Source: Marinimicrobium alkaliphilum (GTDB taxonomy: Bacteria; Pseudomonadota; Gammaproteobacteria; Pseudomonadales; Cellvibrionaceae). From it: DNA of 64,000 bases. Below are positions 8,419 to 37,691 of this stretch, piece after piece (position 1 is the stretch's first letter; each line of letters begins with the position of its first letter). The position numbers and the translations under genes were made by a program. The stretch lies in NCBI RefSeq assembly GCF_003259155.1, contig NZ_QGMQ01000001.1, positions 248,001 through 312,000 on the forward strand. Direction: 5' to 3'. Below the pieces are notes generated by a model. The model searched no databases, was not told where the DNA came from, and saw only the letters and a program-made list of their open reading frames with translations.

Positions 8419-10779
8419 GTGCGGGCGCTCACCCTCAAGTTATTGCGCAACCTCTGGCAGCTCAAGGGCCAGGGGGCCGCCATTGCCACGGTGATTGCGA
8501 TCGGTGTGGCCATGTATGTGATGTCCTTTACGTCTCTGGAGTCCCTGCGCGCCAGTCAGCACAGCGTCTATCAGAACCAGCGCTTTGCCCATGTGTTTGC
8601 TCACCTCAAACGCGCGCCTGAATCGATGGCCGAGCGGCTGCGGGACATTCCCGGCGTGGCCACCCTGGAGACCCGGGTGCAGGCGCCCATCAATATCCAG
8701 ATGCCGGACTTTGACGAGCCCATCACGGGTATGGCGTTGTCGATTCCCGACGGCCGGCAGCCCCAGCTCAACCGTCTGTATCTGCGCGCCGGGCAATTGC
8801 CCGAGGCGGGCCGGGATGAGCAGATACTGGTGAGCGAAGCCTTTGCAGACGCTCACCAACTGCAACCGGGTGATCGCCTGGCGGTGGTGGTCAACGGTCG
8901 CTATCAGCGGCTATTGATCAGCGGCATTGCGCTGTCCCCGGAGTTTATCTACCAGATTCGTCCCGGCGAGATCATGCCGGACTTTGCCCGCTACGGCATT
9001 GTCTGGCTCAATCGCAACGCCCTGGAGGCGGCCTTCAATATGGACGGCGCCTTCAACAGTGCGGTGTTGAGTCTGTCGCCCGGTTACAGCGCCGGGGGGG
9101 TGATAGCGGCGCTGGATCAGTTGCTCGAGCCCTGGGGCGGCACCGGCGCCTACAGCCGGGACGATCAGTTGTCGCACCGCTACCTGGAGGAGGAACTGAC
9201 CCAGCTGGAAACCATGGCGCTGTTTCTGCCGTTGATTTTTATCGGGGTATCGGCGTTTTTGCTCAATGTGGTGGCCGCGCGCCTGATTCGCACCCAGCGC
9301 GAGCAGATTGCGGTGCTCAAGGCCTTTGGGTATTCCAGCTTTACCGTGGCGGCTCACTATTGTTTGTTGGTGTTGGCGATTGTACTGGTGGGGTCAGTGA
9401 TCGGCGTGGCGCTGGGGGCCTGGATGGCCAGCGGCCTGGCGACCTTGTATCAGGACTTTTTCCGCTTCCCCTGGCTGGAGTTTCAGTTGCGTCCTGCCGT
9501 GGCGCTGACCGCCATTGTCATTGCCGGCGGCGCGACCCTGTTGGGAACCCTGAACGCTGTGCTGCGGGCCCTGCGCCTGCCGCCGGCGGAGGCCATGCGC
9601 CCGGAGCCGCCCGCGCGCTTTCGCAAAACCCTGATTGAGCGCCTGGGGATCGGCTGGTTGAGTCAGCCGGCGCGTATCATCCTGCGCAACCTGGAGCGCC
9701 AACCCTGGAAGGCGGGCTTTTCCGTGCTCGGGATTGCTCTGGCGGTGGCCATGGTGATGCTCACCAGTTTTACCCGCGGCTCGGTGGCCTACATGATGGA
9801 CGTGCAGTTTCGCCTGGCCCAAAAACAGGATGTCACCGTCAATTATATTGAGCCGGCGGCGAGTCGCACGCTTTACGAACTGCGCGCATTGCCTGGCGTC
9901 ACCTACGCTGAAAGTTTTCGCTCGGCGCCGGCGATTTTACGTTACGGCCACCGGGAGTATCGCGGCGCGCTCCAGGGGTTTGATCCCGACAGCCGACTCT
10001 TTTCCGTGCTCGACGACCAACTGCGCCCCATTGCCATACCCAAAGAAGGGGTCTTGCTGACCGATCATCTGGCGCGCATGCTTGGCATTGGCGCGGGCGA
10101 TCAGCTGCAGGTAAATATTCAGGAAGGCCGGCGTCCGGAATTGATGATTCCGGTGGTGGGGCTGGTGACCGAGTTTGTCGGTGTGGGGGCCTACATGCAC
10201 CGGGATACCCTGACCCGTCTGTTGGGCGAGGGCGACACCATCAGCGGGGCATTTCTGGCGGTGGATAGCGAGTATCAGCTTGAACTCAACCGCCGTCTGG
10301 AGCAGGTGCCGCGTATTGCCGGCGTCAATTTGCGGGATAATATGCTCGAGGCTTTTAACCAGACCATGGATGAAACCATTCTGGTATTTACGCTATTCAG
10401 TTTGGTGATGGCCGGTGCCATTGCCTTTGCGGTGGTCTACAACAATGCCCGCATCGCCTTTGCCGAGCGCGCCCGGGAATTGGCCAGCTTGCGGGTGCTG
10501 GGTTTTACCCGGCGGGAGACCGGTTGGATTCTGTTGGGTGAGTTGCTGCTGCTGACGCTGGTGGCCTTACCGGTGGGCTTTCTGTTGGGCTATGGTTTGT
10601 GCGCGCTCCTGGCGTGGGGGATGCAGACGGATCTGTATCGGGTTCCCTTGGTGATTACGCCGCAGACCTATGTGTTGGCAGCGGGCGTGGTGTTGGTGGC
10701 GACCTTGTTGTCGGCGGTGGTAATCGGGAAGTCGTTGGCGCGGTTGGATATGGTGCGGGCGCTGAAGGCGGCGGATTAG
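8419..10779 (+). CDS. FtsX-like ABC transporter permease (duplicated FtsX core)
   Basis: This 786-residue inner-membrane protein has the double FtsX/MacB_PCD layout: a first membrane helix (about 20-37), a large periplasmic domain, a three-helix FtsX block (about 265-385), a second single helix (about 430-450), a second periplasmic domain and a final three-helix block (about 655-785). The GTG start at 8419 lies 6 bp after the ATPase stop, indicating translational coupling. Such double permeases work as monomers with two ATPase subunits. The partner adaptor is 2.2 kb further on, behind an antisense lipoprotein gene. Confidence 0.9.
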   Translation: MRALTLKLLRNLWQLKGQGAAIATVIAIGVAMYVMSFTSLESLRASQHSVYQNQRFAHVFAHLKRAPESMAERLRDIPGVATLETRVQAPINIQMPDFDEPITGMALSIPDGRQPQLNRLYLRAGQLPEAGRDEQILVSEAFADAHQLQPGDRLAVVVNGRYQRLLISGIALSPEFIYQIRPGEIMPDFARYGIVWLNRNALEAAFNMDGAFNSAVLSLSPGYSAGGVIAALDQLLEPWGGTGAYSRDDQLSHRYLEEELTQLETMALFLPLIFIGVSAFLLNVVAARLIRTQREQIAVLKAFGYSSFTVAAHYCLLVLAIVLVGSVIGVALGAWMASGLATLYQDFFRFPWLEFQLRPAVALTAIVIAGGATLLGTLNAVLRALRLPPAEAMRPEPPARFRKTLIERLGIGWLSQPARIILRNLERQPWKAGFSVLGIALAVAMVMLTSFTRGSVAYMMDVQFRLAQKQDVTVNYIEPAASRTLYELRALPGVTYAESFRSAPAILRYGHREYRGALQGFDPDSRLFSVLDDQLRPIAIPKEGVLLTDHLARMLGIGAGDQLQVNIQEGRRPELMIPVVGLVTEFVGVGAYMHRDTLTRLLGEGDTISGAFLAVDSEYQLELNRRLEQVPRIAGVNLRDNMLEAFNQTMDETILVFTLFSLVMAGAIAFAVVYNNARIAFAERARELASLRVLGFTRRETGWILLGELLLLTLVALPVGFLLGYGLCALLAWGMQTDLYRVPLVITPQTYVLAAGVVLVATLLSAVVIGKSLARLDMVRALKAAD

Positions 10780-14242: not shown

Positions 14243-14959
14243 ATGATGATGTTGCGATTGAACGGGTCACTGATCACTACTCTGTTGGCGGGATTGCTGT
14301 TGGTGGGCTGCTCTGCCAACCTCAGTACCCTGGATGATCTTTTGGCTGAGCGTGAACCCACCCAACGCGAGCGCGTGATGGGGATCAGAGAGGCGCTGGA
14401 GCTGGGTGCGACTCGGGCTGCGGGGGAGTTGTCCCAGCGGGGTGGTTACGCAGAGAGTTCTCTCTACCGGATTGAGTTACCGGAGGAGCTGCAGAGCATT
14501 GCCCAGCGCCTGCGTCAGTTCGGTATGGGAAATCAGTTAGACGAGGTTGAGCGGCTGATGAACCGTGCCGCCGAGCACGCCGCCGGCGAAGCGCGGGAGG
14601 TGTTTGTGGATGTGGTGCGGGATATGACCGTGACCGACGCCCTGGGCATCATTCGTGGCCACGAGACCGCGGCAACGGAATACTTTCGCGATCGCAGCGA
14701 AGGGGTATTGAAGCAACGCTATCAGCCCATTATCGAAAGTAATCTGCGCCAGATCGGGTTTTACAGTTACTACCAGGATTTTCTGTCTGTCTACCAGCAA
14801 CTGCCGCTCAGCAACAAGCCGGATATCGACCTGGAGCAGCACGTGCTCAACCGGAGTCTGGATGGACTCTTTCGCCAGGTGGCGGTGGAAGAGGGGCTGA
14901 TTCGGGAAGACCCGCTCGGCCGGGGCTCGCGCCTTATCGAACGGGTCTTCCGTCAGTAG
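14243..14959 (+). CDS. DUF4197 family lipoprotein
   Basis: This is a 238-residue predicted lipoprotein with lipobox VGCS (Cys23). The core A-L-G-I-I-R-G-H-E-T-A-A-T-E-Y-F (about residues 132-147) is the hallmark of DUF4197, a helical periplasmic family of unknown function. The N-terminus has three ATG codons in tandem (14243, 14246, 14249), with AAGGAA upstream of the first. The stop codon TAG is formed by the first bases of a REP-like palindrome (14956), so the repeat inserted at or defined the 3' end. Confidence 0.85.
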   Translation: MMMLRLNGSLITTLLAGLLLVGCSANLSTLDDLLAEREPTQRERVMGIREALELGATRAAGELSQRGGYAESSLYRIELPEELQSIAQRLRQFGMGNQLDEVERLMNRAAEHAAGEAREVFVDVVRDMTVTDALGIIRGHETAATEYFRDRSEGVLKQRYQPIIESNLRQIGFYSYYQDFLSVYQQLPLSNKPDIDLEQHVLNRSLDGLFRQVAVEEGLIREDPLGRGSRLIERVFRQ

Positions 14960-15048
14960 GTCGGATTAGCCGCAGGCGTAATCCGACACTCGGACTCGCC
15001 ATAGCCTTCTTCTGTCGGATTACGCCCTTGCGGGCTAATCCGACCTAC
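14956..15048. repeat. Inverted pair of REP-like palindromes
   Basis: Two copies of a roughly 32-36 bp element face each other: GTAGGTCGGATTAG...TAATCCGAC at 14956-14989 and its reverse complement at 15013-15048. Each element is itself a hairpin (GTCGGATTA with TAATCCGAC) and the pair can form a larger cruciform, the layout called BIME in enterics. It lies between convergent genes and may serve as a transcript end. Four more copies occur at 23009-23220. Confidence 0.88.
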
Positions 15049-18406: not shown

Positions 18407-18448
18407 TTGATGTTCATCAGATCCCCTTCTGTTTACCTTTGCTATAGT
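18407..18448 (+). promoter_or_regulatory. FNR/Anr class II-type promoter of the multiheme cluster
   Basis: TTGATGTTCATCAG (18407-18420) matches the FNR consensus in 9 of 10 defined bases. A -10 element TATAGT, preceded by the TGC of an extended -10, lies at 18443-18448. A transcription start 7 bp after the -10 (about 18455) puts the box centre at -41.5, the class II FNR position, and no -35 is present. The decaheme cytochrome gene begins at 18560. Low-oxygen activation is inferred from this geometry. Confidence 0.7.
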
Positions 18449-18559: not shown

Positions 18560-19474
18560 GTGGGCAAGGGCTTACGCGTCTGGCTGTGGATCAGCATACT
18601 CGTCGGGGGATTGTTCAGTGCCGCGCCGTTAGTGGCGGGCGACGATTACCTGGGCCGGGGTGCGGATGGCTGCCTGATGTGTCACCAGGACTATACTGCG
18701 ATCCTGCGCTCGCCCCACGGCGATGGCGCACATCCCCATTCACCTTTTGCCGAAGGGCAACACAGTTGTGAGAGCTGCCACGGCCCCAGTGCCAGTCATT
18801 TGGGGCGTCTGGATGATGGCAGCCGCCCGCTCACCGGTATTCCCTTTGGCAAAGACCATCCCATCGAGGCGCAGAATGCCATCTGCCTGACCTGTCATGA
18901 GCAGGACGCGGGCCATCATTGGCACGGCAGCCTGCACAACTTTGCCGAGGTGCGCTGCGCCGATTGCCATCAGGTCCACAAGGCGCAGGACCCGGTCATG
19001 AGCCGCACGGGTCAGATGGGCGTGTGTCTGGATTGTCATCAGCAGCAGCGCAGCGACATGCATCGCCCCTCCAATCACCCCATGCGCAGCGGCCAGATGG
19101 TGTGTACCGACTGCCACACGCCCCACGGTGGCGCGGGTCCGGCGGAGCTGCCCCGGCTGTCGGTCAATGAGAGTTGTTATGACTGCCACGCGGAGAAGCG
19201 CGGCCCCTTTTTGTGGGAGCACGCCCCGGTGGCGGAGGATTGCACCTCATGCCATCGGCCCCACGGCTCCAACCACCGGGATCTGTTGACCGCGCGCACG
19301 CCGCAACTGTGTCAGCAGTGCCACCTGGCCCAGTTTCACCCGAGCAGCTTTGAGTCCGGTGCGGGCCTGCCGCCCCACGGCGGTTCCAGCAATATGGTGG
19401 GGCGCGACTGCATGAACTGTCACACCCAGGTGCACGGCTCCAACCATCCTTCGGGGGCGGGTTTGACCCGGTAG
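18560..19474 (+). CDS. Decaheme c-type cytochrome (DmsE/MtrA family)
   Basis: This is a 304-residue exported cytochrome with a signal peptide (about 1-27) and exactly ten CXXCH motifs (CLMCH, CESCH, CLTCH, CADCH, CLDCH, CTDCH, CYDCH, CTSCH, CQQCH, CMNCH) at regular spacing. This is the DmsE/MtrA/PioA plan, in which a heme wire is threaded through an outer-membrane barrel. The GTG start at 18560 has AAGGAG 6 bp upstream. The barrel gene follows 3 bp after the stop. Maturation needs the Ccm system, which is not in the window. It probably passes electrons from the periplasm to the outside. Confidence 0.93.
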   Translation: MGKGLRVWLWISILVGGLFSAAPLVAGDDYLGRGADGCLMCHQDYTAILRSPHGDGAHPHSPFAEGQHSCESCHGPSASHLGRLDDGSRPLTGIPFGKDHPIEAQNAICLTCHEQDAGHHWHGSLHNFAEVRCADCHQVHKAQDPVMSRTGQMGVCLDCHQQQRSDMHRPSNHPMRSGQMVCTDCHTPHGGAGPAELPRLSVNESCYDCHAEKRGPFLWEHAPVAEDCTSCHRPHGSNHRDLLTARTPQLCQQCHLAQFHPSSFESGAGLPPHGGSSNMVGRDCMNCHTQVHGSNHPSGAGLTR

Positions 19475-19477
19475 GCC

Positions 19478-21655
19478 ATGAGACGATTGCAGGGTTTGGG
19501 ATTATCACTCTTGTGTTTCAGCGCCGCGACCCAGGCGGAGGGCCTGAGTGGCGGCGTGTCGGTCAACCTGGGCTATCTCTCGGACGATGCGCCGCGCTTT
19601 GGTCAGTACTCCGGCGTGCAGGAACAGGGAGGCTACCTGGGCGTAGACCTGAATCTGGAGTCTGATGCGGATTACCGGCAAAGCCGGTATTGGTTATTGG
19701 ATGCGGAGCGCCTCGGGCTGGATGACTACCGGGTCAGCGCTGAAGCGGGCGAGCGCGGCGCCTACCGGGTGCGGGTGGACTACCAGGCGCTGGTCAATAA
19801 TGCTATCGAGGGCGCCCAGTCGCCGTTCCGGCCGGGCAACCCGCTGACCCTGCCCAACGACTGGCAGGTGGAGGGCAACAATACCGCCGGCCTTCTGCAA
19901 CTGGACGAAAGCCTGGCCCCCGTGGATTTCTGGCAGGAGCGCGGACGCCTGCGCCTGGACTACCGCCATGACCTGGGTGAGCAGTGGCGCTTAAACGCCG
20001 AGCTGCGACGCGAGACCAAAACCGGCAACCGTATTCTCGGTGGCGTGACCGGCTACAGCGGCGGCAATAACCGCGCGGCCCTGCTGCCTGCGCCGGTGGA
20101 TTACGAAACCCATATCGCCGATCTGGGACTGACCTATCAGGGCGACGGTTATCACTGGGGTTTCGCCTATCACGGCTCCTTTTATCGCAGCGGTGATACG
20201 GGACTGGCCTGGCCCACACCCTTTGGCCAAAATCCCCAGTGGGCCGATGGCGTCGGTTATCCGAACGGCAACAATCAATTGGCGCTGGAGCCGGACAACC
20301 AGTATCACCAGTTGCGACTCTTTGCCGGCATGCCGCTTTTCGAGACCACCCGGGCGCAGCTGGACCTGGCCCACGGACGCATGACCCAGGACCAGGATTA
20401 CCTGCCGTACACTCTCAACCCGGCGCTGACTGTCAATGAAGCGCTACCGCAGACTTCTCTCGATGGTCGAGTGGATACCACTCACGCCAACTTGCGCCTT
20501 ACCAGCCGGCCAGCACCGCAATGGCACCTGAGCCAGCGGCTGCGCTATCGCGACCGCGACAACCGGACGCCTCAGGCGGTGTATCAGCGGGTGCGCGGCG
20601 ATGCGGAAAACCAGCAGGCGTTTGAGTCGGGACGGATCAATCGCCCCTACAGCCTGACCACCACCGAGTTTGCCAGTGACGCCGCCTATCGCCTGACCCG
20701 GCGGGTGCGCCTCAATGCCGGCTATGAATACCAGCACACCGAGCGCGACTACTCGGAAGTGCGCCGCCTGGAAGAGCATGCGCTGAAGCTGGGCGCACGT
20801 CGCACTGCCAGCGCCACTACCGCCGTCAGTGCCGAACTGCAACACCGTCAAAGGCGCGGCAGCGAGTATCTGGACACCTTGCCCTATGTACAGACCCATG
20901 TGCCCGGCACCATCGGCGAGGATGATTTTGAAAACCATCCGTTGTTGCGCAAATACTACCTGGCGGACCGCGACCGGGATCAACTGCGTTTGCGCGCCGA
21001 CTGGTTTCCTACGGCGGAATTCAGCGCCGGGCTCAACTTTATCTACAATCGCGACGATTACCAGGACGTGGTTTTCGGACTGGACGATTCCATCATGCGT
21101 TCCTGGATGCTGGACTGGAGTTATGCTGCCGCCGAGGGCGTGCAGCTCAGCGGTTTTGCCAGCACCGACCGCTATGCCAGCGAACAGTTTGGCCGTTCCT
21201 TTCGCGGCAACGTGCCCACGGATGTGGACGATCCGGAACGCGACTGGCAGGTGGCCGCCCGCGATCGTTTTGATACCTACGGCCTGACCCTGGCCTGGGA
21301 CAATGTCCAGGACCGCCTCGACTGGGATTGGCTCAGCGGGCCGTTGAATCTGTCACTGGAGTGGGTCAACTCCCGCTCCCGGGGTGAGATGAACACCTAT
21401 GCCGGACCGGCACTCAACCATGAGCCGCTGCCGGTACTGCGGACTCACTTGAATCACTACCGGGTAAACGGGGATTATCAAGTCACCGACCAGTCCGCGG
21501 TTCGTTTGAGTCTTGAGCACGAGCGCTACACCAGCGCGGATTACGCCCTGGATGATATCGCGCCAGATACTGCCGCCAATGTACTGACCCTGGGGCACCG
21601 CAGCCCCCGCTACAACGTCACCTGGGTAGTGCTCGGCTACCGCTACCAGTTTTAG
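19478..21655 (+). CDS. MtrB/PioB-family outer membrane beta-barrel
   Basis: This 725-residue barrel with a signal peptide (about 1-20) has many alternating amphipathic strands separated by DYR/RYRDRDN-type turns and a terminal aromatic residue (YRYQF). This is the decaheme-associated outer membrane protein family (MtrB, DmsF, PioB), which insulates the decaheme cytochrome across the membrane. The CXXC pair seen near the N-terminus of Shewanella MtrB is absent. The start lies 3 bp after the cytochrome stop, and the flavocytochrome gene follows 9 bp after this stop, so the three are surely one operon. Confidence 0.9.
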   Translation: MRRLQGLGLSLLCFSAATQAEGLSGGVSVNLGYLSDDAPRFGQYSGVQEQGGYLGVDLNLESDADYRQSRYWLLDAERLGLDDYRVSAEAGERGAYRVRVDYQALVNNAIEGAQSPFRPGNPLTLPNDWQVEGNNTAGLLQLDESLAPVDFWQERGRLRLDYRHDLGEQWRLNAELRRETKTGNRILGGVTGYSGGNNRAALLPAPVDYETHIADLGLTYQGDGYHWGFAYHGSFYRSGDTGLAWPTPFGQNPQWADGVGYPNGNNQLALEPDNQYHQLRLFAGMPLFETTRAQLDLAHGRMTQDQDYLPYTLNPALTVNEALPQTSLDGRVDTTHANLRLTSRPAPQWHLSQRLRYRDRDNRTPQAVYQRVRGDAENQQAFESGRINRPYSLTTTEFASDAAYRLTRRVRLNAGYEYQHTERDYSEVRRLEEHALKLGARRTASATTAVSAELQHRQRRGSEYLDTLPYVQTHVPGTIGEDDFENHPLLRKYYLADRDRDQLRLRADWFPTAEFSAGLNFIYNRDDYQDVVFGLDDSIMRSWMLDWSYAAAEGVQLSGFASTDRYASEQFGRSFRGNVPTDVDDPERDWQVAARDRFDTYGLTLAWDNVQDRLDWDWLSGPLNLSLEWVNSRSRGEMNTYAGPALNHEPLPVLRTHLNHYRVNGDYQVTDQSAVRLSLEHERYTSADYALDDIAPDTAANVLTLGHRSPRYNVTWVVLGYRYQF

Positions 21656-21664
21656 GGAGAACCT

Positions 21665-22963
21665 ATGTCACCGCGCATGTACAAACTGTTGGTGTGGTTG
21701 ATTGCGATACTGCCGGGCCTTGTGGCCCTGTTTTTTATGCGTTCCCCGGACACCGCTTCGGTGGGTGGCGTGCTCAACTATCTGGGACGCTTGACCGGCA
21801 TTGTCGGGCTGTCGACCATGCTTATGGCGGCGATTCTGTGTTGCCGGGTGCCCGGCTTTGATCGGCCTTTCGGCGGGCTGACTAAAATGTGGAAACTCCA
21901 CCACCAGCTCGGCGCCGTGGCCTTTCTGTTATTGCTGGCACACCCCCTCTTGTTGGCCTTTGCCGCCGCCGAGGTTTCTTTGACTGCGGCAGTCGCAACG
22001 TTGACGCCCACCAGCCAGAGCCTGTGGTTGGGCTGGATCGCGCTGGTGCTGATGATGGTTTTTCTCGCCCCGAGTTTCGCCTTTTTTGGCCACCCGGATT
22101 ATCAGCGTTGGAAATGGGTGCATCGGCTCAGTGGTCCGGCGATTATTCTGGCATTGATTCATACGGCGTTGCTGATGCGCACCTTGCCAGCGCCCTGGGA
22201 TACGTTGGTGTGGGTGGTGTACGTAGCCGCTGCGGTGGGTGCGCTGGCTTACCGATTTGTGTTTTCTCGGGTAAAAGGAAGGCAGCCCTATCAGGTCATG
22301 CAAGTGGAACGCTCGGCCAATAATGTGGTGGAAATCAGCTTGCAGGCCGAGCGCTCACGTCTGGATCATGAGGCGGGGCAGTTTGTGTATTTGACGCCGT
22401 TCGATAAAACCCTGACCAATGGTTACGCCGAAGAGCACCCCTATACGATTTCCTCCGCGCCGGATGAACCTCTACTGCGTATTGCGATCAAGGACTTGGG
22501 GGATGCCAGTCGCGCGATCCAGACGATCGCCGTGGGCAGTCAGGTGAAAGTGGAGGGGCCGTACGGCGGTTTCTTTCCGCCTACCGAGCTGGGGCCGTCC
22601 CTGTGGGTTGCTGGTGGCATTGGCATCACGCCGTTTCTGGGAAAGGTACGGGAGTTGGCTCGCGGTGAATTTTCCGGTGATGTGCATCTGGTGTATTGCG
22701 TGCAGGACGAGTCCCGGGCGTTGTTCCTGGAGGAGTTGAGCGGCTACGCCCAGGCACTGCCGGGCTTTCATTTGTCGATGCATTATTTTTACCGGGAGGG
22801 GCCGCTGGATGAAGCCTTTCTCAACCGGGTGTGTGACGATGTTGCCGAGCGCGAAGCGTTTATTTGCGGGCCGACACCGTTGTTGAGTTGTGCCCGTAAT
22901 GTGTTGCTTGGCGCCGGCGTGCCGGCACGCCGGATTACGACGGAGGAGTTTGAGCTTCTTTAG
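21665..22963 (+). CDS. Ferric-reductase-like transmembrane flavocytochrome b (NOX/FRE fold)
   Basis: This 432-residue inner-membrane enzyme has six helices (about 7-205) carrying paired histidines (WKLHHQLG...LAHPLL and WVHRLSG...LIHTALL) that would bind two b hemes. An FAD domain follows (HPYTISSAP, about 260) and then an NAD(P)H domain (VAGGIGITPF, about 315; CGPTPLL, about 405). Family members move electrons from cytosolic NAD(P)H across the membrane. Its place directly after the decaheme and barrel genes makes it the likely electron donor to the periplasmic hemes. The start ATG 21665 has GGGAGA upstream. Confidence 0.9.
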   Translation: MSPRMYKLLVWLIAILPGLVALFFMRSPDTASVGGVLNYLGRLTGIVGLSTMLMAAILCCRVPGFDRPFGGLTKMWKLHHQLGAVAFLLLLAHPLLLAFAAAEVSLTAAVATLTPTSQSLWLGWIALVLMMVFLAPSFAFFGHPDYQRWKWVHRLSGPAIILALIHTALLMRTLPAPWDTLVWVVYVAAAVGALAYRFVFSRVKGRQPYQVMQVERSANNVVEISLQAERSRLDHEAGQFVYLTPFDKTLTNGYAEEHPYTISSAPDEPLLRIAIKDLGDASRAIQTIAVGSQVKVEGPYGGFFPPTELGPSLWVAGGIGITPFLGKVRELARGEFSGDVHLVYCVQDESRALFLEELSGYAQALPGFHLSMHYFYREGPLDEAFLNRVCDDVAEREAFICGPTPLLSCARNVLLGAGVPARRITTEEFELL

Positions 22964-23008
22964 TGGTGGGGTAGCGCAAGCGGCGTTTTTTCGTTTGGGT
23001 GCCTCAGT

Positions 23009-23220
23009 GTCGGATTACGCCCTTCGGGCTAATCCGACCTACACGAAACCGTGTGCTGCTGTCCAAGTAGGTCGGATTAGCGCAGCGTAATCCGACACAT
23101 AGGGCACCCAAATTAGAACAGTGTGCTGCTGTCCAAGTAGGTCGGATTAGCGTAGCGTAATCCGACAAAAACGCTCGATGTTTCCAGTAGGTCGGATTAG
23201 GCGCAGCCGTAATCCGACAC
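23009..23220. repeat. Cluster of four REP-like palindromes
   Basis: Copies lie at 23009-23042 (inverted), 23067-23098, 23137-23166 and 23187-23220, all with the core GTCGGATTA...TAATCCGAC. The second and third copies share a further 16 bp of upstream sequence (GTGTGCTGCTGTCCAA) and stand exactly 70 bp apart, so this unit was tandemly duplicated. The cluster fills the 292-bp gap between the flavocytochrome and cytochrome b5 genes and may attenuate or stabilise the transcript. No associated transposase lies in the window. Confidence 0.9.
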
Positions 23221-23255
23221 TAAGGCACCGAATCCAAAATCCGAGGAGATCACTT

Positions 23256-23609
23256 ATGAAAAAAACCGTTTTCGCCGCTTTCATCGCCTTCTGGTCGTCC
23301 ATCGGCACCCTGGTGCTGGTTGGCAGCCTGTCCGCCCACGCCGTATCGGAAGCGGAAGGGGAGTTGTCGACCTACACGCTCGAGCAAGTGGCCGAGCACA
23401 ACACCCTCGGCAGCTGCTGGATGGTCATCGAAGGCAAGGTCTACGACTTCACCGGCTACATTCCGAGACATCCGACACCACCGGTGGTCATGGAAGGTTG
23501 GTGTGGCCGCGAGGCGACGGAAGGCATGCGCACCAAAGGCTATGGCCGCGACCACAGCCCGGCAGCCTGGGGCCTGATGGAAGATTACCTGATCGGTGAG
23601 TTGGAGTAG
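23256..23609 (+). CDS. Exported cytochrome b5-like heme protein
   Basis: This 117-residue protein has a signal peptide (about 1-30) and a single cytochrome b5 domain (about 37-117). The usual HPGG heme motif is changed to HPTP (RHPTPPVVMEGWCG), but the first axial His is kept and the second is present in GRDHSPAAW. It is therefore expected to bind one b heme in the periplasm. ATG 23256 with GAGGAG upstream was chosen over an upstream in-frame start in the repeat region. It may belong to the redox cluster upstream, or be expressed alone because REP elements intervene. It ends 2 bp from the convergent P-ATPase. Confidence 0.85.
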   Translation: MKKTVFAAFIAFWSSIGTLVLVGSLSAHAVSEAEGELSTYTLEQVAEHNTLGSCWMVIEGKVYDFTGYIPRHPTPPVVMEGWCGREATEGMRTKGYGRDHSPAAWGLMEDYLIGELE

Positions 23610-23611
23610 CG

Positions 23612-25897
23612 CTAGTCGGCACGGGCCGATGAGACCTGCCGACGAAAGCGGCCTTTAAGCAACATGGAATTGCCAATGACCGACAGCGAGCTGGCGGTCA
23701 TGGCAATCACACCCACCATCGGATGCAATAACCCGGCGGCGGCAATCGGAATGGCGGCGGCGTTGTAGCCGCTGGCCCACCAGAGATTCTGCACAATTTT
23801 GTCGAAGGTGGCGCGCGACAATTGCATGGCTTCGACGACCCCGGTCAACTCGCCTTTGACCAGGGTGACATCGGCGGCTTCGATGGCCACGTCGGCGCCC
23901 GCACCGATGGCGATGCCCACGTTGGCCTGTTTGAGTGCCGGGGCATCGTTGATGCCGTCGCCCACCATCGCAACATGGTCGCCAAAGCGTTCCTGCAGGG
24001 CGCGCACGGCATCCACCTTGCCCTCGGGCAGCACTTCGGCCTGAACTTCGTCGATACCCACTTCCCGAGCCACGGCATTGGCGGCGCGTTCGTTATCGCC
24101 GGTAATCATGACTACATGCAATCCCAGTTTGTGCATGGCGGCGATGGCGTCGGCGGAGTCTTCCTTGATGCTGTCGGCGACTGCCAGTAGGCCGCGGGCC
24201 TTACCGTCGACGGCAACAATGACACTGGTGCGACCTTCGTTTTCCAGCTTCTCCAGGGACGCCTGCAAGGCTTGCAGTCCTTCCACCCCCTGTTCGTCCA
24301 GCAGTCGGCGGTTGCCGATCAGCACCTGCTTTCCGTCGACGTCACCACTGACGCCGCGGGCCGCTTCGGATTTGAATTGCTGCACATCGGCGGGCTTGAC
24401 GTCACGCTCCTGGGCGCCCTCGACAATGGCGCGGGCGATGGGGTGCTCCGAGGCGTTCTCCAGGCTGGCGCCCCAATAGAGCAGGTCTTTTTCGTCCGTG
24501 CCTTCGGCGGGCACGACATCGGTCAGCGTCGGCTGCCCTCGGGTGATGGTGCCGGTTTTGTCCAACACCACGACTTTGATGTCCTTGAAAGTCTGAATGG
24601 CTTCCCCGGAACGGATCAGTATGCCCCGTTGCGCGCCCAGGCTCGAACCCACCATCAGGGCGGTCGGGGTCGCCAGACCCAGGGCGCAGGGGCAGGCAAT
24701 GACCAGTACCGCGATGGCCGCCAGGGTGGCCAGGATTGGCGTTGTCAGCGTGGGGTCAACCCAGGGCAGAAAGCCTTCACCCCAATAGAGGACGGGACGC
24801 AGGCTGTCGCCCAGCACTGCCCAGGCGATAAAGCTGAGAACAGCGATGCCGATCACGATGGGCACAAAACGGGCGGTCATCCGGTCGGCAAAGTCCTGAA
24901 TGGGCACGCGCGAACCCTGGGCCTGCTCCACGAGTTTGATGACCTGGGAAATAAAGGTGTCTTTGCCCACTTTGGTGGCTTTGATCCGCAGTCGCCCCTC
25001 TTTGTTAATGGTGGCGCCCAATACGGTATCGCCCGACTGACGCAGCACCGGAATGGATTCGCCGGTGGCAATGGACTCGTCGATATGGCTTTCGCCGTCG
25101 ACCACTTCGCCGTCGGTGGGAATCTTGTCGCCGGGGCGAACCACCATAATGTCGCCGGACTGCAGATCCTCAACCGGGATCTCCTCTTCCTTGCCGTCGC
25201 GCTCGACCCGGGCGGTTTTCGCACTCAGGGTCATCAGCCGGCGAATGGCCTGAGACGCCTGGCCCTTGGCCCGGGTCTCCAGATAGCGACCGAGCAGATG
25301 GAAGGTCATGATGGTGGCGGCCATTTCCATAAAGGAGGTCATGGCAAAGAAGAAACCCAGCAGCCCGATAAAGTAGGGCGGCAGACTGCCCATGGAAATC
25401 AGCACATCCATATTGGCGTTGCGGTTGCGCAATGCCTTCCAGGAGGCCTTGTGGGTGGCCCAGCCACCTTTGAGAAAGACCACGGGAAATGCCAGCACCG
25501 CAATAATGGCCAGGTAACCGGGAATCGGTTGCCAGAACATGTGCGGCATCATGATGATCATGATCAGCGTAGTGGGCACCGCGGCGAACCACAGGCGCTT
25601 CTTGGCCTGGGTGAGGTAGGCTTCCTCGGCGCCCAGGTCGTGACTGTCTTCGGCTTCGGTGGTGACCTTCGCCACATCGTAGCCGGCGTTTTCCACCGTG
25701 GTGCGCAGGCGCTCGGCCTCTGGGCCGCCGGATTCGACCGCCACCGTCACCTTGTGATTGCTCACATTGGTGTTGATTGAGGCAATGCCGTCCAAGCGTT
25801 CCAGGCTCTTGCGCACAATGCCTGCGCAGTGGTCGCTGCCCATGCCGGGCACGGTGATAATAAAGCGCTGGGACTGATTGTCGGCATTGTCGTTCAC
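23612..25897 (-). CDS. Heavy-metal P-type ATPase, copper type
   Basis: This is a 761-residue P1B-type ATPase that would export Cu(I) from the cytoplasm. Visible are one N-terminal HMA-like domain, the transport motif CPC (402-404), the phosphorylated Asp446 in DKTGT, and the C-terminal YN...M-x2-S-S signature of the copper (P1B-1) class. The HMA metal site is degenerate: GMGSDHC has Ser21 where the first Cys of CxxC should be, so this domain may not bind Cu(I) normally. The start is a GTG (25897) with AGGGGAG upstream. A 9-bp inverted repeat lies just upstream (25933-25962). A second, complete copper ATPase lies at 28362. Confidence 0.9.
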   Translation of the reverse strand: MNDNADNQSQRFIITVPGMGSDHCAGIVRKSLERLDGIASINTNVSNHKVTVAVESGGPEAERLRTTVENAGYDVAKVTTEAEDSHDLGAEEAYLTQAKKRLWFAAVPTTLIMIIMMPHMFWQPIPGYLAIIAVLAFPVVFLKGGWATHKASWKALRNRNANMDVLISMGSLPPYFIGLLGFFFAMTSFMEMAATIMTFHLLGRYLETRAKGQASQAIRRLMTLSAKTARVERDGKEEEIPVEDLQSGDIMVVRPGDKIPTDGEVVDGESHIDESIATGESIPVLRQSGDTVLGATINKEGRLRIKATKVGKDTFISQVIKLVEQAQGSRVPIQDFADRMTARFVPIVIGIAVLSFIAWAVLGDSLRPVLYWGEGFLPWVDPTLTTPILATLAAIAVLVIACPCALGLATPTALMVGSSLGAQRGILIRSGEAIQTFKDIKVVVLDKTGTITRGQPTLTDVVPAEGTDEKDLLYWGASLENASEHPIARAIVEGAQERDVKPADVQQFKSEAARGVSGDVDGKQVLIGNRRLLDEQGVEGLQALQASLEKLENEGRTSVIVAVDGKARGLLAVADSIKEDSADAIAAMHKLGLHVVMITGDNERAANAVAREVGIDEVQAEVLPEGKVDAVRALQERFGDHVAMVGDGINDAPALKQANVGIAIGAGADVAIEAADVTLVKGELTGVVEAMQLSRATFDKIVQNLWWASGYNAAAIPIAAAGLLHPMVGVIAMTASSLSVIGNSMLLKGRFRRQVSSARAD

Positions 25898-28361: not shown

Positions 28362-30635
28362 TTAGCGGGTGGTCAGTTTACTACGCTTCAGGCGCAGGGC
28401 ATTGCCCAGTACAAAAGTACTCGACAGGGCCATGGCGCCCGCCGCGAAAATCGGCGATAACAGAATCCCGTAGAGAGGATAGAGTAACCCTGCGGCCACG
28501 GGAATCAGCGCGGTGTTGTACGCAAAGGCCCAGAACAGGTTCTGTTTGATATTGCGCAGTGTCGCGCGGGAAATGGCAATGGCTTTGACCGCTGCGGACA
28601 GGTCGCCCTTGACCAAAACCACATCGGCGCTGTCGATGGCGATATCCGTTCCGGTGCCCATGGCGATGCCGACATCGGCCTGGGCGAGGGCCGGGGCATC
28701 ATTGATGCCATCGCCCACAAAGGTGACGCGCTTGCCGTCGGCTTGTAATGCCTTGATGGCATCGATCTTGCCGTCGGGCATCACTTCGGCGATCACCCGA
28801 TCAATTTTCAATTGCTTGGCAATCGCCTCGGCGGTTTGGCGGTTGTCGCCGGTCATCATCACCACCTCAAAGCCTTGTCGGTGAAGCGCCGCAATGGCAT
28901 AGGCACTGGTGTCTTTGAGTGTGTCGGCCACGGCAATCAGGGCGGCCAACTGTCCATCGATGAGTGCGTAGATGGGTGTTTTGCCTTCGCGAGCCAGGGC
29001 CTGGGCCTGTTCGGTAAAAGGATTATCGACGATACCCCGGGCGCGGGCAAAACGGTCGGCGCCGATGGCGACTGCTTTGCCATTGACCTGTGCGTGGATG
29101 CCAGCGCCGCTTTCGGTATTGACCTGTTGCGCTTGTGGCAGCGCAAGGTCCTTTGCGCGAGCAGCAGCGACAATGGCTTGGGCGATGGGGTGCTCCGAGC
29201 GTGATTCCACCGCCGCAATGATGGCCAGGAGCGCGTCCGGGTCAAAGCCCTCGGCAGTGATAAAGTCGGTCAGCGCGGGTGCGCCCCGGGTCAGGGTGCC
29301 GGTTTTATCCAGAGCAATGACGTCTGTGTTGCGCAGCGCCTGCAGTGCTTCACCGTGACGAAACAGAACGCCCATTTCCGCCGCCCGACCGGTGGCCACC
29401 ATGATCGACGTAGGTGTGGCCAGGCCCATGGCACAGGGGCAGGCGATAATCAGTACCGCCACGGCGTTGACCAGTGCCAGGGACAGCGCCGGTGCCGGGC
29501 CGAACACCAGCCAGGTCACCAGTGTGAGCAGGGCGATGCCCATGACTGCCGGCACAAACCAGAGAGTGACGCGGTTGACCAGTGCCTGAATGGGCAGGCG
29601 CGAGCCCTGGGCGCTTTCCACCATCTCGATGATCTGGGCAAGCAGGGTGTCCTTTCCGGTTTTTGTCACGGTGAAGGTAAAGCTGCCGTTTTTGTTCAGG
29701 GTACTGCCGATGACCGTGTCGCCAGGGTGTTTGGCGGCGGGAATGGGTTCGCCGGTGAGCATGGATTCGTCCACATAGGATTCGCCCTCAATGATTTCGC
29801 CATCCAGCGGGATTTTTTCACCGGGGCGCACCCGCACCTGTTCACCCACCGCGACATCGTCGGGTGCGACCTCGACTTCTTTGCCGTGGCGCAGCACCCG
29901 GGCGTTTTTCGCTTGCAGTCCGACAAGACGCGCGATGGCCTGGTTGGTTCGGCCCTTGGCATTGGCCTCCAGCAAACGCCCGAGCAGAATCAGGGTGACG
30001 ATCACCGCGGCAGCCTCAAAGTAGACATTGACGCTGCCTTCGGGCAGGGCGCCGGGGGCGAAGGTGGCGATCACGGAATAACTCCAGGCGGCACCGGTGC
30101 CCAGCGCCACCAGTGAGTTCATATCCGGACGTCGGTGCCAGAGCGCAGGGATGCCCAACCGGAAGAACAGTCGACCGGGGCCAAATAGCACCAGGGTGGT
30201 CAAGGCAAACTGGATCAGCCAGTTGCTCTGTCGGCCGAGGATCCCCTCAATGGCGTGGTGTAGCGGTGGGATAAAATGGCTGCCCATTTCCAACACAAAC
30301 ACGGGCAGCGTGAGTGCCAGGGCCCACCAGAACGCGCGCCGTAGGCGTTGATAGTCGGCGTCGCGGGCTTCACGTTGTTCGGTATCGGCCCGGACCCGGG
30401 ATTCAATTGGGGTGGCATCAAAGCCGGCTTCCCGCACTGCCCGTTGCAGTGCCTCCACATCCCCGGTGGTATTGCTCCAGCTCACCCGGGCGCGCTCACT
30501 CGCAAAGTTGACGCTGGCTTCATTCACGCCAGGCACGCTTGCCAGCGCCTGTTCCACGCGTCCGACACAGCCGCCGCAGTGCATGCCGGTAATGGTGAGC
30601 TGGGTACTCGCAGGGTCGCGTTTGGAGTGGTTCAT
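28362..30635 (-). CDS. copA: Copper-exporting P-type ATPase (CopA-like)
   Basis: This is a 757-residue Cu(I)-exporting ATPase with one intact N-terminal HMA domain (GMHCGGC, Cys20 and Cys23), CPC at 399-401, Asp443 in DKTGT, and C-terminal YN and M-A-L-S-S motifs of the copper class. It contrasts with the paralogue at 23612, whose HMA site is degenerate. A CueR-type promoter lies 41-71 bp upstream and the CueR-like gene follows, so this is the likely copper-inducible efflux pump. Confidence 0.95.
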
Positions 30636-35664: not shown

Positions 35665-35770
35665 ACGAACTTTCTGCACCCTTTCGCCGCACTTTGGCCG
35701 TACCTCCCCTTAGCAGTAGATGATGCCTCGTGTAGGGGTGTTCAACTCAATCGAGCTGGGGGAGCGGGTT

Positions 35771-36604
35771 ATGGCCAATTTACGGGGGTATCCACTGGGC
35801 GCTGTCATGCTGGTGGTCTTGTTCGGGGGACTTACCGCCTGTGGCGGTAGCAGTGGCAGCGACACGCCGCCCGGGGGGACCAATGGCAACGGTAACGGCA
35901 ATGGTAACAGCAATGGCAACGGCGACCCGGAGCCGACGCTGGCCACTATTCAACAAACGATTTTCTCACCCATCTGCGCGACCTGTCATACGGGGGCAGG
36001 CGCGCCCGAGGGCCTGCGACTGGACAGCGAGCAGGCCAGCTATGACCATCTGGTAGAGCAGCCGGCGCAAGGCGTACCGGCGCTGATGCGGGTGGATCCG
36101 GGTAACCCGGATGACAGCTACCTGGTACGCAAGCTTGAAGGCGGCCCGGATATCGTCGGTGACCGGATGCCTCAGGGCGGGGCTTCACTCAGCAGTGCCC
36201 AGATCGCATTGATACGGGACTGGATCGCCAACGGGGCGGCGCGCGAGGGTACCGGTGACGGTGCGACCGGCGTGGTACTGGCGGGGGTTGAGGACAGTGC
36301 CAGTGGCGTCGAGCTCACCTGGCGTTTTTCCCGGTCTCTGGCGGAGCACGCGCAGGACCCCCACACCTGGCAGGTCTACCTGCGCACGGACGGTGCCACC
36401 CGGCCGCTGACGTCGGATGAGTATAGCTACTGGCTCGATGAACGGGCCCTGATTCTGAATCTGCCAACCCAGGCGGATGCGACGCTGGAGGTTCTCTTCA
36501 ACGACCCGGCCAGCGGTCTCTGGCTGGATCATCGTGGCCGTGTCATTGATGGCGACGGCGATGGTCAGGACGGCGGACGCTACCGTTATGTCTATCCGCA
36601 TTGA
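35771..36604 (+). CDS. Monoheme c-type cytochrome lipoprotein
   Basis: This is a 277-residue predicted lipoprotein: lipobox LTAC (Cys24), a short (NG)n linker (about 37-51), then a c-type heme site CATCH (about residue 69) in a segment (ICATCHTGAGAPEGLRL) like the domain found before Planctomycete-type cytochromes. A beta-rich C-terminus follows (about 170-277: SGVELTWRFSRSL, TWQVYLRTDG). ATG 35771 has GGGGGAG upstream; an in-frame start at 35720 lacks one. Its last 17 bp overlap the next gene, so the pair is coupled. It probably passes electrons at the outer membrane; the partner is unknown. Confidence 0.82.
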   Translation: MANLRGYPLGAVMLVVLFGGLTACGGSSGSDTPPGGTNGNGNGNGNSNGNGDPEPTLATIQQTIFSPICATCHTGAGAPEGLRLDSEQASYDHLVEQPAQGVPALMRVDPGNPDDSYLVRKLEGGPDIVGDRMPQGGASLSSAQIALIRDWIANGAAREGTGDGATGVVLAGVEDSASGVELTWRFSRSLAEHAQDPHTWQVYLRTDGATRPLTSDEYSYWLDERALILNLPTQADATLEVLFNDPASGLWLDHRGRVIDGDGDGQDGGRYRYVYPH

Positions 36605-37691
36605 TCCTTGGCGCGGATGCTGGGGGACGTTACTGGCGTTGTGTTGGCTGATTGCCGTGCCCGCCAGTGCCGAGCCTTACCTGGCGGTGCAGACCGGGCA
36701 TGCGTGCGCCGCCTGCCATGTCAACCCGACTGGCGGCGGTGCGCGCAATCGCTACGGTGCCTTTTTTGGCTCACAGAATTTACCGGTGAACGCCGGCGAT
36801 ATCGCCAGCTTTGACGATGGGCAGCTCAATGCTCTGCTGCGCATCGGCGGTGACCTGCGTTTCAATCTGTCGGAAACCGAGCGGGATGAGCGCGACGTGG
36901 ATCGGGGGTTCAATACCCACAGCGGGCAGGTGTATCTGACGGTCACGCCCGAGAACAGCCCGGTGCTGCTGCACCTGGACCAGCAGGTGACCCCAGGGGG
37001 GTCGCGCATGCGTGAGGCCTTTATCCTGGCGCGCGTTGGCGAACGCCACTACGTCAAGGCCGGTAATCTGTTTTTGCCCTACGGGCTTCGGCTGCAGGAT
37101 GACGCCGCCTTTATTCGTGAAGCCTCGCAAGTCAACTTTCAGAACAGTGAACAGGGTGTGGAAGTGGGGTTGGGCTTTGGACGCTCCCTGATCAATGTCG
37201 CGCTCACCAATGGTACCAGCAGTGCCAGTAATAACGATGGGCGCTTCCAGGCGGTTACCCGGGCGGAATATGTGCACGACGGGTGGCGTGTTGGCGCGGG
37301 CTACATGTTGAACGATGCGGCGGCGGGTGAACGGCATCTGGGCAATGTGTTTGGTGGGCTGCGCTGGGGAGACTACGGCCTGCTTCTGGAAGTGGCGCGC
37401 CTGGAGGATCAATCGGTGCTCAACGAGGAAGGTGAGCCCGAGGTCGCCCATGTCGGTTTGCTCGAAATCAACTGGCGTCCGGCGCAAGGCTATAACGTGA
37501 AATTCACCAACGAGTTTCTCGACCCCGATACCGGCACCGCGGACAACGAGCGCCGTCGCCATTCGCTGGTGTTTGAGTATACGCCGATTGCGCACCTGCA
37601 AGTGTTGAGCGGTTTTCGGCTGGTCGATGACCGCGGCATCGTGTCCGGTAACGGCCATCAGGTGTTTGCCCAACTGCATTTTTACTACTGA
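36588..37691 (+). CDS. Outer membrane beta-barrel with N-terminal CXXCH heme motif
   Basis: This 367-residue exported protein has a signal peptide (about 1-26, VPASA/EPYL) followed at once by a heme-like motif CAACH (about residue 36, in HACAACHVNPTGGGARNRYG). About 16 amphipathic strands typical of a porin-like barrel follow, ending in an aromatic residue (LHFYY). The start ATG 36588 overlaps the cytochrome lipoprotein gene by 17 bp. I know similar CxxCHxNPxGGGxRNxYG proteins only as uncharacterised barrels. Coupling to a lipoprotein cytochrome suggests an outer-membrane redox pair. Whether the motif binds heme is not shown by sequence alone. Confidence 0.8.
   Translation: MSIRIDPWRGCWGTLLALCWLIAVPASAEPYLAVQTGHACAACHVNPTGGGARNRYGAFFGSQNLPVNAGDIASFDDGQLNALLRIGGDLRFNLSETERDERDVDRGFNTHSGQVYLTVTPENSPVLLHLDQQVTPGGSRMREAFILARVGERHYVKAGNLFLPYGLRLQDDAAFIREASQVNFQNSEQGVEVGLGFGRSLINVALTNGTSSASNNDGRFQAVTRAEYVHDGWRVGAGYMLNDAAAGERHLGNVFGGLRWGDYGLLLEVARLEDQSVLNEEGEPEVAHVGLLEINWRPAQGYNVKFTNEFLDPDTGTADNERRRHSLVFEYTPIAHLQVLSGFRLVDDRGIVSGNGHQVFAQLHFYY

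Follow-up and report, generated by a model that had tools for sequence, protein, structure and literature searches.

In the descriptions available, Mtr, Mto and Pio conduits trade electrons either with the quinone pool or with a periplasmic carrier. What, then, might supply an MtrAB conduit whose genes lie beside those for an NAD(P)H-type flavocytochrome and a cytochrome b5? This question is raised by four plus-strand genes of Marinimicrobium alkaliphilum, which are located in a 64,000-nucleotide stretch of contig NZ_QGMQ01000001.1 (positions 248,001 to 312,000) that is called the window below. The genes encode an MtrA-like cytochrome, an MtrB-like barrel, a NOX/ferric-reductase flavocytochrome (FRE) and a cytochrome b5, and they are separated by gaps of 3 bp (GCC), 9 bp and 292 bp. 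We consider it probable that their products form a trans-envelope conduit fed by NAD(P)H, in which FRE and b5 would pass electrons to MtrAB and on to an outside acceptor. The predicted coupling of FRE to MtrAB is well supported by sequence comparison. The wider proposal is that such conduits lead directly from NAD(P)H to the outside, bypassing the quinone pool, and that a general FRE-b5 module has been plugged into MtrAB more than once in evolution. Here the balance tips only slightly in favor.

Components of the four-gene set

The mtrA product carries ten CXXCH motifs and scores above the cut-off of its family model, and among solved structures it is best matched by chain A of 6r2q, the MtrCAB entry from Shewanella baltica. 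The barrel protein likewise exceeds the cut-off of the MtrB model and matches chain B (Table 1). A decaheme MtrA-type cytochrome is thus encoded directly beside an MtrB-type barrel, as is characteristic of MtrAB porin-cytochrome pairs. An earlier interpretation made without database searches (the sequence-only reading) had recognized both proteins as well as the 3- and 9-bp gaps, and these assignments are confirmed. Adjacent genes, full-length homologues and a decaheme MtrA in an MtrB barrel are features shared with the MtrCAB/CymA system of Shewanella. The two outer-membrane parts also resemble MtoAB/PioAB and DmsEF, and the matched mtrA model is in fact named for the DmsE family. However, the window neighborhood differs from those systems in having no MtoD, PioC or CymA and no DmsAB (for DmsAB, no genome-wide search was made). 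The sequence-only reading had also pointed out that the MtrB homologue lacks an N-terminal CXXC. This is true, and its sole cysteine is residue 13, but the absence was rejected as a hallmark of the system because CXXC is also missing from many MtrBs of this order that are linked to MtrC.

FRE has two bis-His transmembrane heme sites, H79/H93 (H-x13-H) and H153/H166 (H-x12-H), which are invariant in 30 relatives, and C-terminal FAD and NAD(P)H domains. Its AlphaFold model (pLDDT 92, pTM 0.86) matches Streptococcus pneumoniae NOX (SpNOX, 8qt6; PMC5676040, PMC11031084) over the full length, with a Foldseek E value of 1e-23 and a template modeling (TM) score of 0.79 to 0.87 (0.79 to 0.81 on the query). 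A sequence profile gives the same match at an E value of 5e-44. The two proteins share the six-helix core, both bis-His pairs and both cofactor domains, and the flavocytochrome described by the sequence-only reading is therefore upheld. Because the histidines are invariant and the NOX fold extends over the whole protein, FRE is predicted to be built for transferring electrons across the membrane from NAD(P)H and FAD via two b hemes. FRE nevertheless differs from SpNOX in that the two are only about 21% identical and that FRE reads HPYT rather than HPFT in its FAD motif, is nearly always paired with a b5 and is linked to MtrAB. Bacterial NOX enzymes have been defined by the FAD motif H[PSA]F[TS][LIMV] (PMC5676040), and the HPYTI of FRE does not match this strict NADPH oxidase pattern.

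The b5 protein starts as given in Table 1 rather than at position 23178, where a longer open reading frame (ORF) begins that does not mark the true start. It is modeled as one N-terminal helix (residues 2 to 30) followed by a b5 domain. The best solved match is 1cxy, the Ectothiorhodospira vacuolata cytochrome b558, at about 55% identity over the b5 domain (55% by structural alignment; E 4e-27 by sequence), with both cysteines and both ligand histidines retained. The latter protein was solved in soluble form, whereas the window b5 carries a membrane anchor at its N terminus and is genetically tied to a constant partner. Ligands H72 (within HPTP or HPAP) and H100 and cysteines C54 and C83 are invariant in 24 relatives. 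The HPTP heme motif, which had been regarded as altered, falls within the normal variation of this subfamily. The b5 fold, two His ligands and paired cysteines place the protein among bacterial b558/b5 cytochromes. The Ectothiorhodospira b558 reportedly contains a disulfide bridge. The conserved cysteine pair fits a periplasmic location, and the positively charged N terminus preceding the helix would likewise put the domain outside. No viral contigs carrying this b5 were found.

To count the genes that accompany FRE, we used 73 loci from an FRE alignment scan of 84,980 species genomes, which detects only loci keeping two peptide patterns. The window and one further genome (G041) bring the total to 75, with Marinimicrobium and Proteobacterium 005FR1 counted once. 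A b5 gene is located directly downstream of FRE in 71 of these loci (62 found by hidden Markov model and 9 read by eye), often overlapping the FRE stop codon. Of the other four loci, two are cut off by a contig edge, one has a broken reading frame, and the last (L057) encodes a six-heme c-type protein. The exported b5 reported by the sequence-only reading is present and predicted to be membrane anchored, but it is no add-on, being a near-constant partner of FRE. In relatives the b5 gene overlaps FRE or starts within about 30 bp of it; in the window genome a cluster of repeats resembling repetitive extragenic palindromes (REP-like) separates the two. Six copies of this repeat, GTAGGTCGGATTAG, are present in the window, where none are expected, and those outside the cluster are located at 14956-15048. 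In 005FR1, a repeat run of the GAGACGAGA type lies in the gap between mtrB and FRE (L036, about 9298-9540).

Table 1. Features of the M. alkaliphilum locus, with positions counted from the first nucleotide of the window
Feature	Position	Strand	Evidence or remark
FNR/Anr-type operator TTGATGTTCATCAG	18407..18420	+	Upstream of mtrA; 1 mismatch versus TTGATN4ATCAA
mtrA-like ten-heme c-type cytochrome, 304 aa, GTG start	18560..19474	+	TIGR03508, 273 bits (cut-off 192); 6r2q_A, E 8e-82
mtrB-like outer-membrane barrel, 725 aa	19478..21655	+	PF11854, 468 bits; TIGR03509, 436 bits (cut-off 240); 6r2q_B, E 5e-53
FRE flavocytochrome, 432 aa, two bis-His heme sites plus FAD and NAD(P)H domains	21665..22963	+	PF01794, PF08022, PF00175
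Four REP-like repeats GTAGGTCGGATTAG between FRE and b5	23029..23200	not assigned	Repeat count in window
Membrane-anchored cytochrome b5, b558 type, 117 aa, predicted periplasmic	23256..23609	+	PF00173; model pLDDT 92; 1cxy match

Pairing of the flavocytochrome with MtrAB

Beyond the window, the set is found in at least 11 records or genomes from unrelated marine and soda-lake bacteria. Its gene order is kept across genera and families, which is the outcome that the sequence-only reading had proposed to look for in relatives. MtrAB adjoins FRE in the window genome (3.79 Mb, rated 100% complete), in Marinimicrobium agarilyticum of the same family, and in 005FR1, Lacimicrobium, Haliea and one further genome (G383). 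The same holds for six loci (L041, L042, L045, L046, L047 and L102) from metagenome-assembled genomes (MAGs), soda-lake MAGs included. In Haliea the order is FRE-b5-mtrA-mtrB. Among 391 genomes of the order, 12 carry FRE, 25 carry a strong MtrB and 6 carry both (0.8 expected), with the genes adjacent in five (hypergeometric P of 3e-5, relatedness ignored).

The histories of the two partners were compared by using phylogenetic trees. All 11 MtrAB-linked FREs that were tested fall within one supported set of 14. In the MtrB tree, the FRE-linked proteins occupy three separate places, and a constraint forcing them into a single clade is rejected by the approximately unbiased (AU) test (p of 7e-7). 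Because the FRE-linked MtrBs are not one clade, we conclude from the trees that the pairing has evidently arisen or re-formed more than once. That FRE has thus acquired different MtrABs as partners is hard to explain without a working link between them.

Electron supply, direction and regulation

No MtrC family member (TIGR03507) scored above the cut-off in the window genome or in any of the 11 set-bearing genomes, and five of five controls were positive. At 20 other MtrAB loci of the order, a tetraheme cytochrome is encoded nearby in 12 and an MtrC-like decaheme in about 10 (one of 11 such decaheme assignments, L172, overlaps the MtrA frame and is probably not MtrC). Neither protein is encoded at any of five FRE-linked MtrAB loci (Fisher p of about 0.04 for each, relatedness ignored). 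In a previous survey, a CymA homologue was clustered with mtrCAB in one or more members of nearly all groups (Baker et al. 2022, PMC8805035). Since that survey covered MtrCAB, it would miss loci that have no MtrC. The FRE-linked sets therefore differ from the MtrCAB/CymA system in having no MtrC (11 genomes) and no adjacent tetraheme quinol dehydrogenase, with an NAD(P)H-type flavocytochrome and a b5 instead.

MtrAB could still be fed by quinol through NapC or an unrecognized inner-membrane protein, with FRE and b5 co-transcribed but acting separately. Such an arrangement draws support from NapC-family proteins in 5 of the 11 genomes and from FRE-b5 genes found elsewhere without MtrAB, but we consider it unlikely. 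The NapC/CymA family is absent from the other six genomes, which include the isolates Lacimicrobium SS2-24 and 005FR1, although other quinol-to-periplasm routes were not searched and gene absence is weaker evidence in the several genomes that are MAGs. Moreover, the sole NapC/CymA-family gene of the window genome adjoins napAB, the M. agarilyticum copy likewise lies beside napA- and napB-like genes, and FRE is paired with several different MtrAB lineages. The claim that CymA, MtrC and DmsAB are all missing thus stands for MtrC throughout the genome and for DmsAB in the neighborhood that was searched, but one NapC/CymA-family gene does exist, in the nap operon. The co-occurrence that had been suggested as a check, a decaheme, MtrB and FRE set without mtrC, is seen in 11 of 11 genomes, and in 6 of these it also occurs without a NapC/CymA type.

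In the NAD(P)H-fed conduit that we favor, FRE would transfer hydride from NAD(P)H in the cytosol to FAD and move single electrons across the inner membrane via the inner and then the outer b heme. The anchored b5 would accept them on the periplasmic side and hand them to MtrA, whose ten-heme chain within the MtrB barrel would conduct them across the outer membrane to an acceptor outside the cell. Candidate acceptors are Fe(III), Mn(IV), humics, a flavin or a partner cell. The set would replace two elements of the Shewanella design, namely CymA as quinol dehydrogenase and MtrC as outer cytochrome. We infer each electron step, as well as the direction, the donor (NADH or NADPH), the acceptor and the physiological role.

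Electrons leaving the cell would follow the membrane potential and pump nothing. For this reason, the conduit should conserve no energy by itself and would likely serve to dispose of reducing power or to reduce external substrates. The wire could instead run inward, as in the MtoAB/PioAB iron oxidizers, with external electrons passing through b5 and FRE to reduce NAD+. MtrAB homologues of the Mto/Pio kind do run inward in Fe(II) oxidizers, and Marinimicrobium has been listed among holders of pio/mto homologues (PMC10654088). However, known NOX/FRE enzymes move electrons outward from NAD(P)H, the membrane potential would oppose inward flow, and we see no coupling site that could drive NAD+ reduction uphill. 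We therefore regard inward flow as very improbable.

Upstream sequences of the 75 loci were examined for regulatory sites. TTGAT-N4-ATCAA is the commonest of the 1,024 possible 5-mer inverted repeats with a 4-base spacer. It occurs within one mismatch at 21 of the 75 loci, compared with 0 to 2 at other spacers and 3 in a coding control. Because this FNR palindrome is enriched, is present upstream of mtrA in the window and is accompanied by an FNR-family regulator in the genome (above the NCBIfam cut-off), the operon is probably expressed at low oxygen via FNR/Anr. Switched on under oxygen limitation, the conduit could vent surplus reducing power or act as a reductase outside the cell.

These sites bear on two other proposals. 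No solved structure is closer to full-length FRE than SpNOX, and FRE might accordingly produce superoxide, with MtrAB or b5 being incidental. We give this proposal very little credence, since b5 is fixed beside FRE and the enriched FNR/Anr-type sites fit low-oxygen expression. The second proposal keeps the same wiring but has it reduce external Fe(III) or Cu(II) to make metals available rather than to dispose of electrons. FRE-type enzymes include iron reductases, MsrQ-like flavinylated systems have been tied to iron uptake genes (Meheust et al., PMC8238504), and heavy-metal P-type ATPases are encoded downstream in the window. Nevertheless, an assimilatory role appears doubtful. Fur control was considered and rejected, as Fur-like sites (six mismatches) are barely enriched, at 4 of 75 loci versus 1.4 in a shuffled background, whereas the FNR palindrome is strongly enriched. 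In addition, no iron-uptake gene was seen recurring beside FRE.

Several observations weigh against an NAD(P)H-fed conduit. NapC-family proteins are present in some set-bearing genomes, as noted above. Menaquinone synthesis was tried as a discriminator and rejected, because MenD is above the cut-off in 0 of 15 genomes, MtrCAB controls included. Most lineages have FRE-b5 without MtrAB, and the pair thus also has a separate role. Within the MtrAB-type FRE clade, two members (L048 and L051) come from genomes that have no MtrB, and in L043 and its neighbor L107 MtrB is not adjacent to FRE. Finally, the window b5, at its distance from FRE and behind the repeat cluster, may have its own transcription.

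FRE-b5 beyond MtrAB, and what the locus may mean

About 40 b5 proteins (from Halomonas, Thioalkalivibrio, Marinobacter, Saccharospirillum and others) have a C-terminal extension matching FMN_bind, which is above the cut-off in L037, L062 and L105, among others, and weak elsewhere. FMN_bind is absent from all ten readable b5s that adjoin MtrAB, including that of the window. Because extensions are found elsewhere and not on the MtrAB-linked proteins, FRE-b5 is, judged from its genes, an export module with different outlets, of which MtrAB is one. In an Aquisalimonas MAG (L057:3635-4957), the six-heme c-type protein, whose N-terminal anchor is similar, takes the place of b5 after FRE, which suggests that the outlets behind FRE are exchangeable. 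No neighbors beyond FRE, b5 and MtrAB were seen to recur across lineages.

Among the closest known systems are also the "MsrQ-like" ones, in which a PF01794 protein has FMN-binding partners; the main text of the paper describing them mentions neither b5 nor Mtr (Meheust et al. 2021, PMC8238504). These systems often combine PF01794 with PF00175 and pass electrons to an extracytosolic carrier, and relatives of the window b5 carry FMN_bind as well. The window set differs in having no FMN_bind partner; the domain, partly weak, is found in FRE-b5 relatives without MtrAB. At five loci (L037, L062, L080, L096 and L105), the b5 directly behind FRE is fused to at least one FMN_bind domain with SGAT-type flavinylation motifs. 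Such fusions are hybrids of b heme and flavin, and they are not mentioned in the flavinylation survey (PMC8238504). FRE-b5 genes of four Elusimicrobiota MAGs (L053, L069, L086 and L088) are nested within the gammaproteobacterial FRE tree, which reflects either horizontal transfer or MAG contamination.

Directly downstream of the locus are two minus-strand genes for heavy-metal P-type ATPases (23612-25897 and 28362-30635) and a MerR-type regulator. In several loci of Halomonas and Marinobacter (L067, L075, L093 and L111), a gene for a similar ATPase is found close to FRE. Farther along, a 369-residue ORF (36582-37691, +) has a signal sequence, one heme motif (QTGHACAACH) and a porin-like remainder, and it matched no Pfam or NCBIfam family. 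Its layout resembles Cyc2-type fused cytochrome-porins, and a gene for a lipoprotein-like c-type cytochrome (35720-36604, +) precedes it. The genes at 35720-37691 possibly provide a second outer-membrane electron route 13 kb away.

Our literature search, which covered few subscription papers, found none joining MtrAB to an FRE/NOX protein or to b5. Surveys keyed to MtrC or CymA overlook FRE-linked MtrAB loci. With the four-gene set, the bacterial cytochrome b558, for which a structure has been available since 1999, also acquires a genomic context. If the proposed conduit is correct, it would be an existing component with which cytosolic NAD(P)H could be connected to electrodes. For the bacteria that carry it, the conduit would represent extracellular electron transfer without a respiratory chain, the energetic logic of which would be redox disposal rather than energy conservation.

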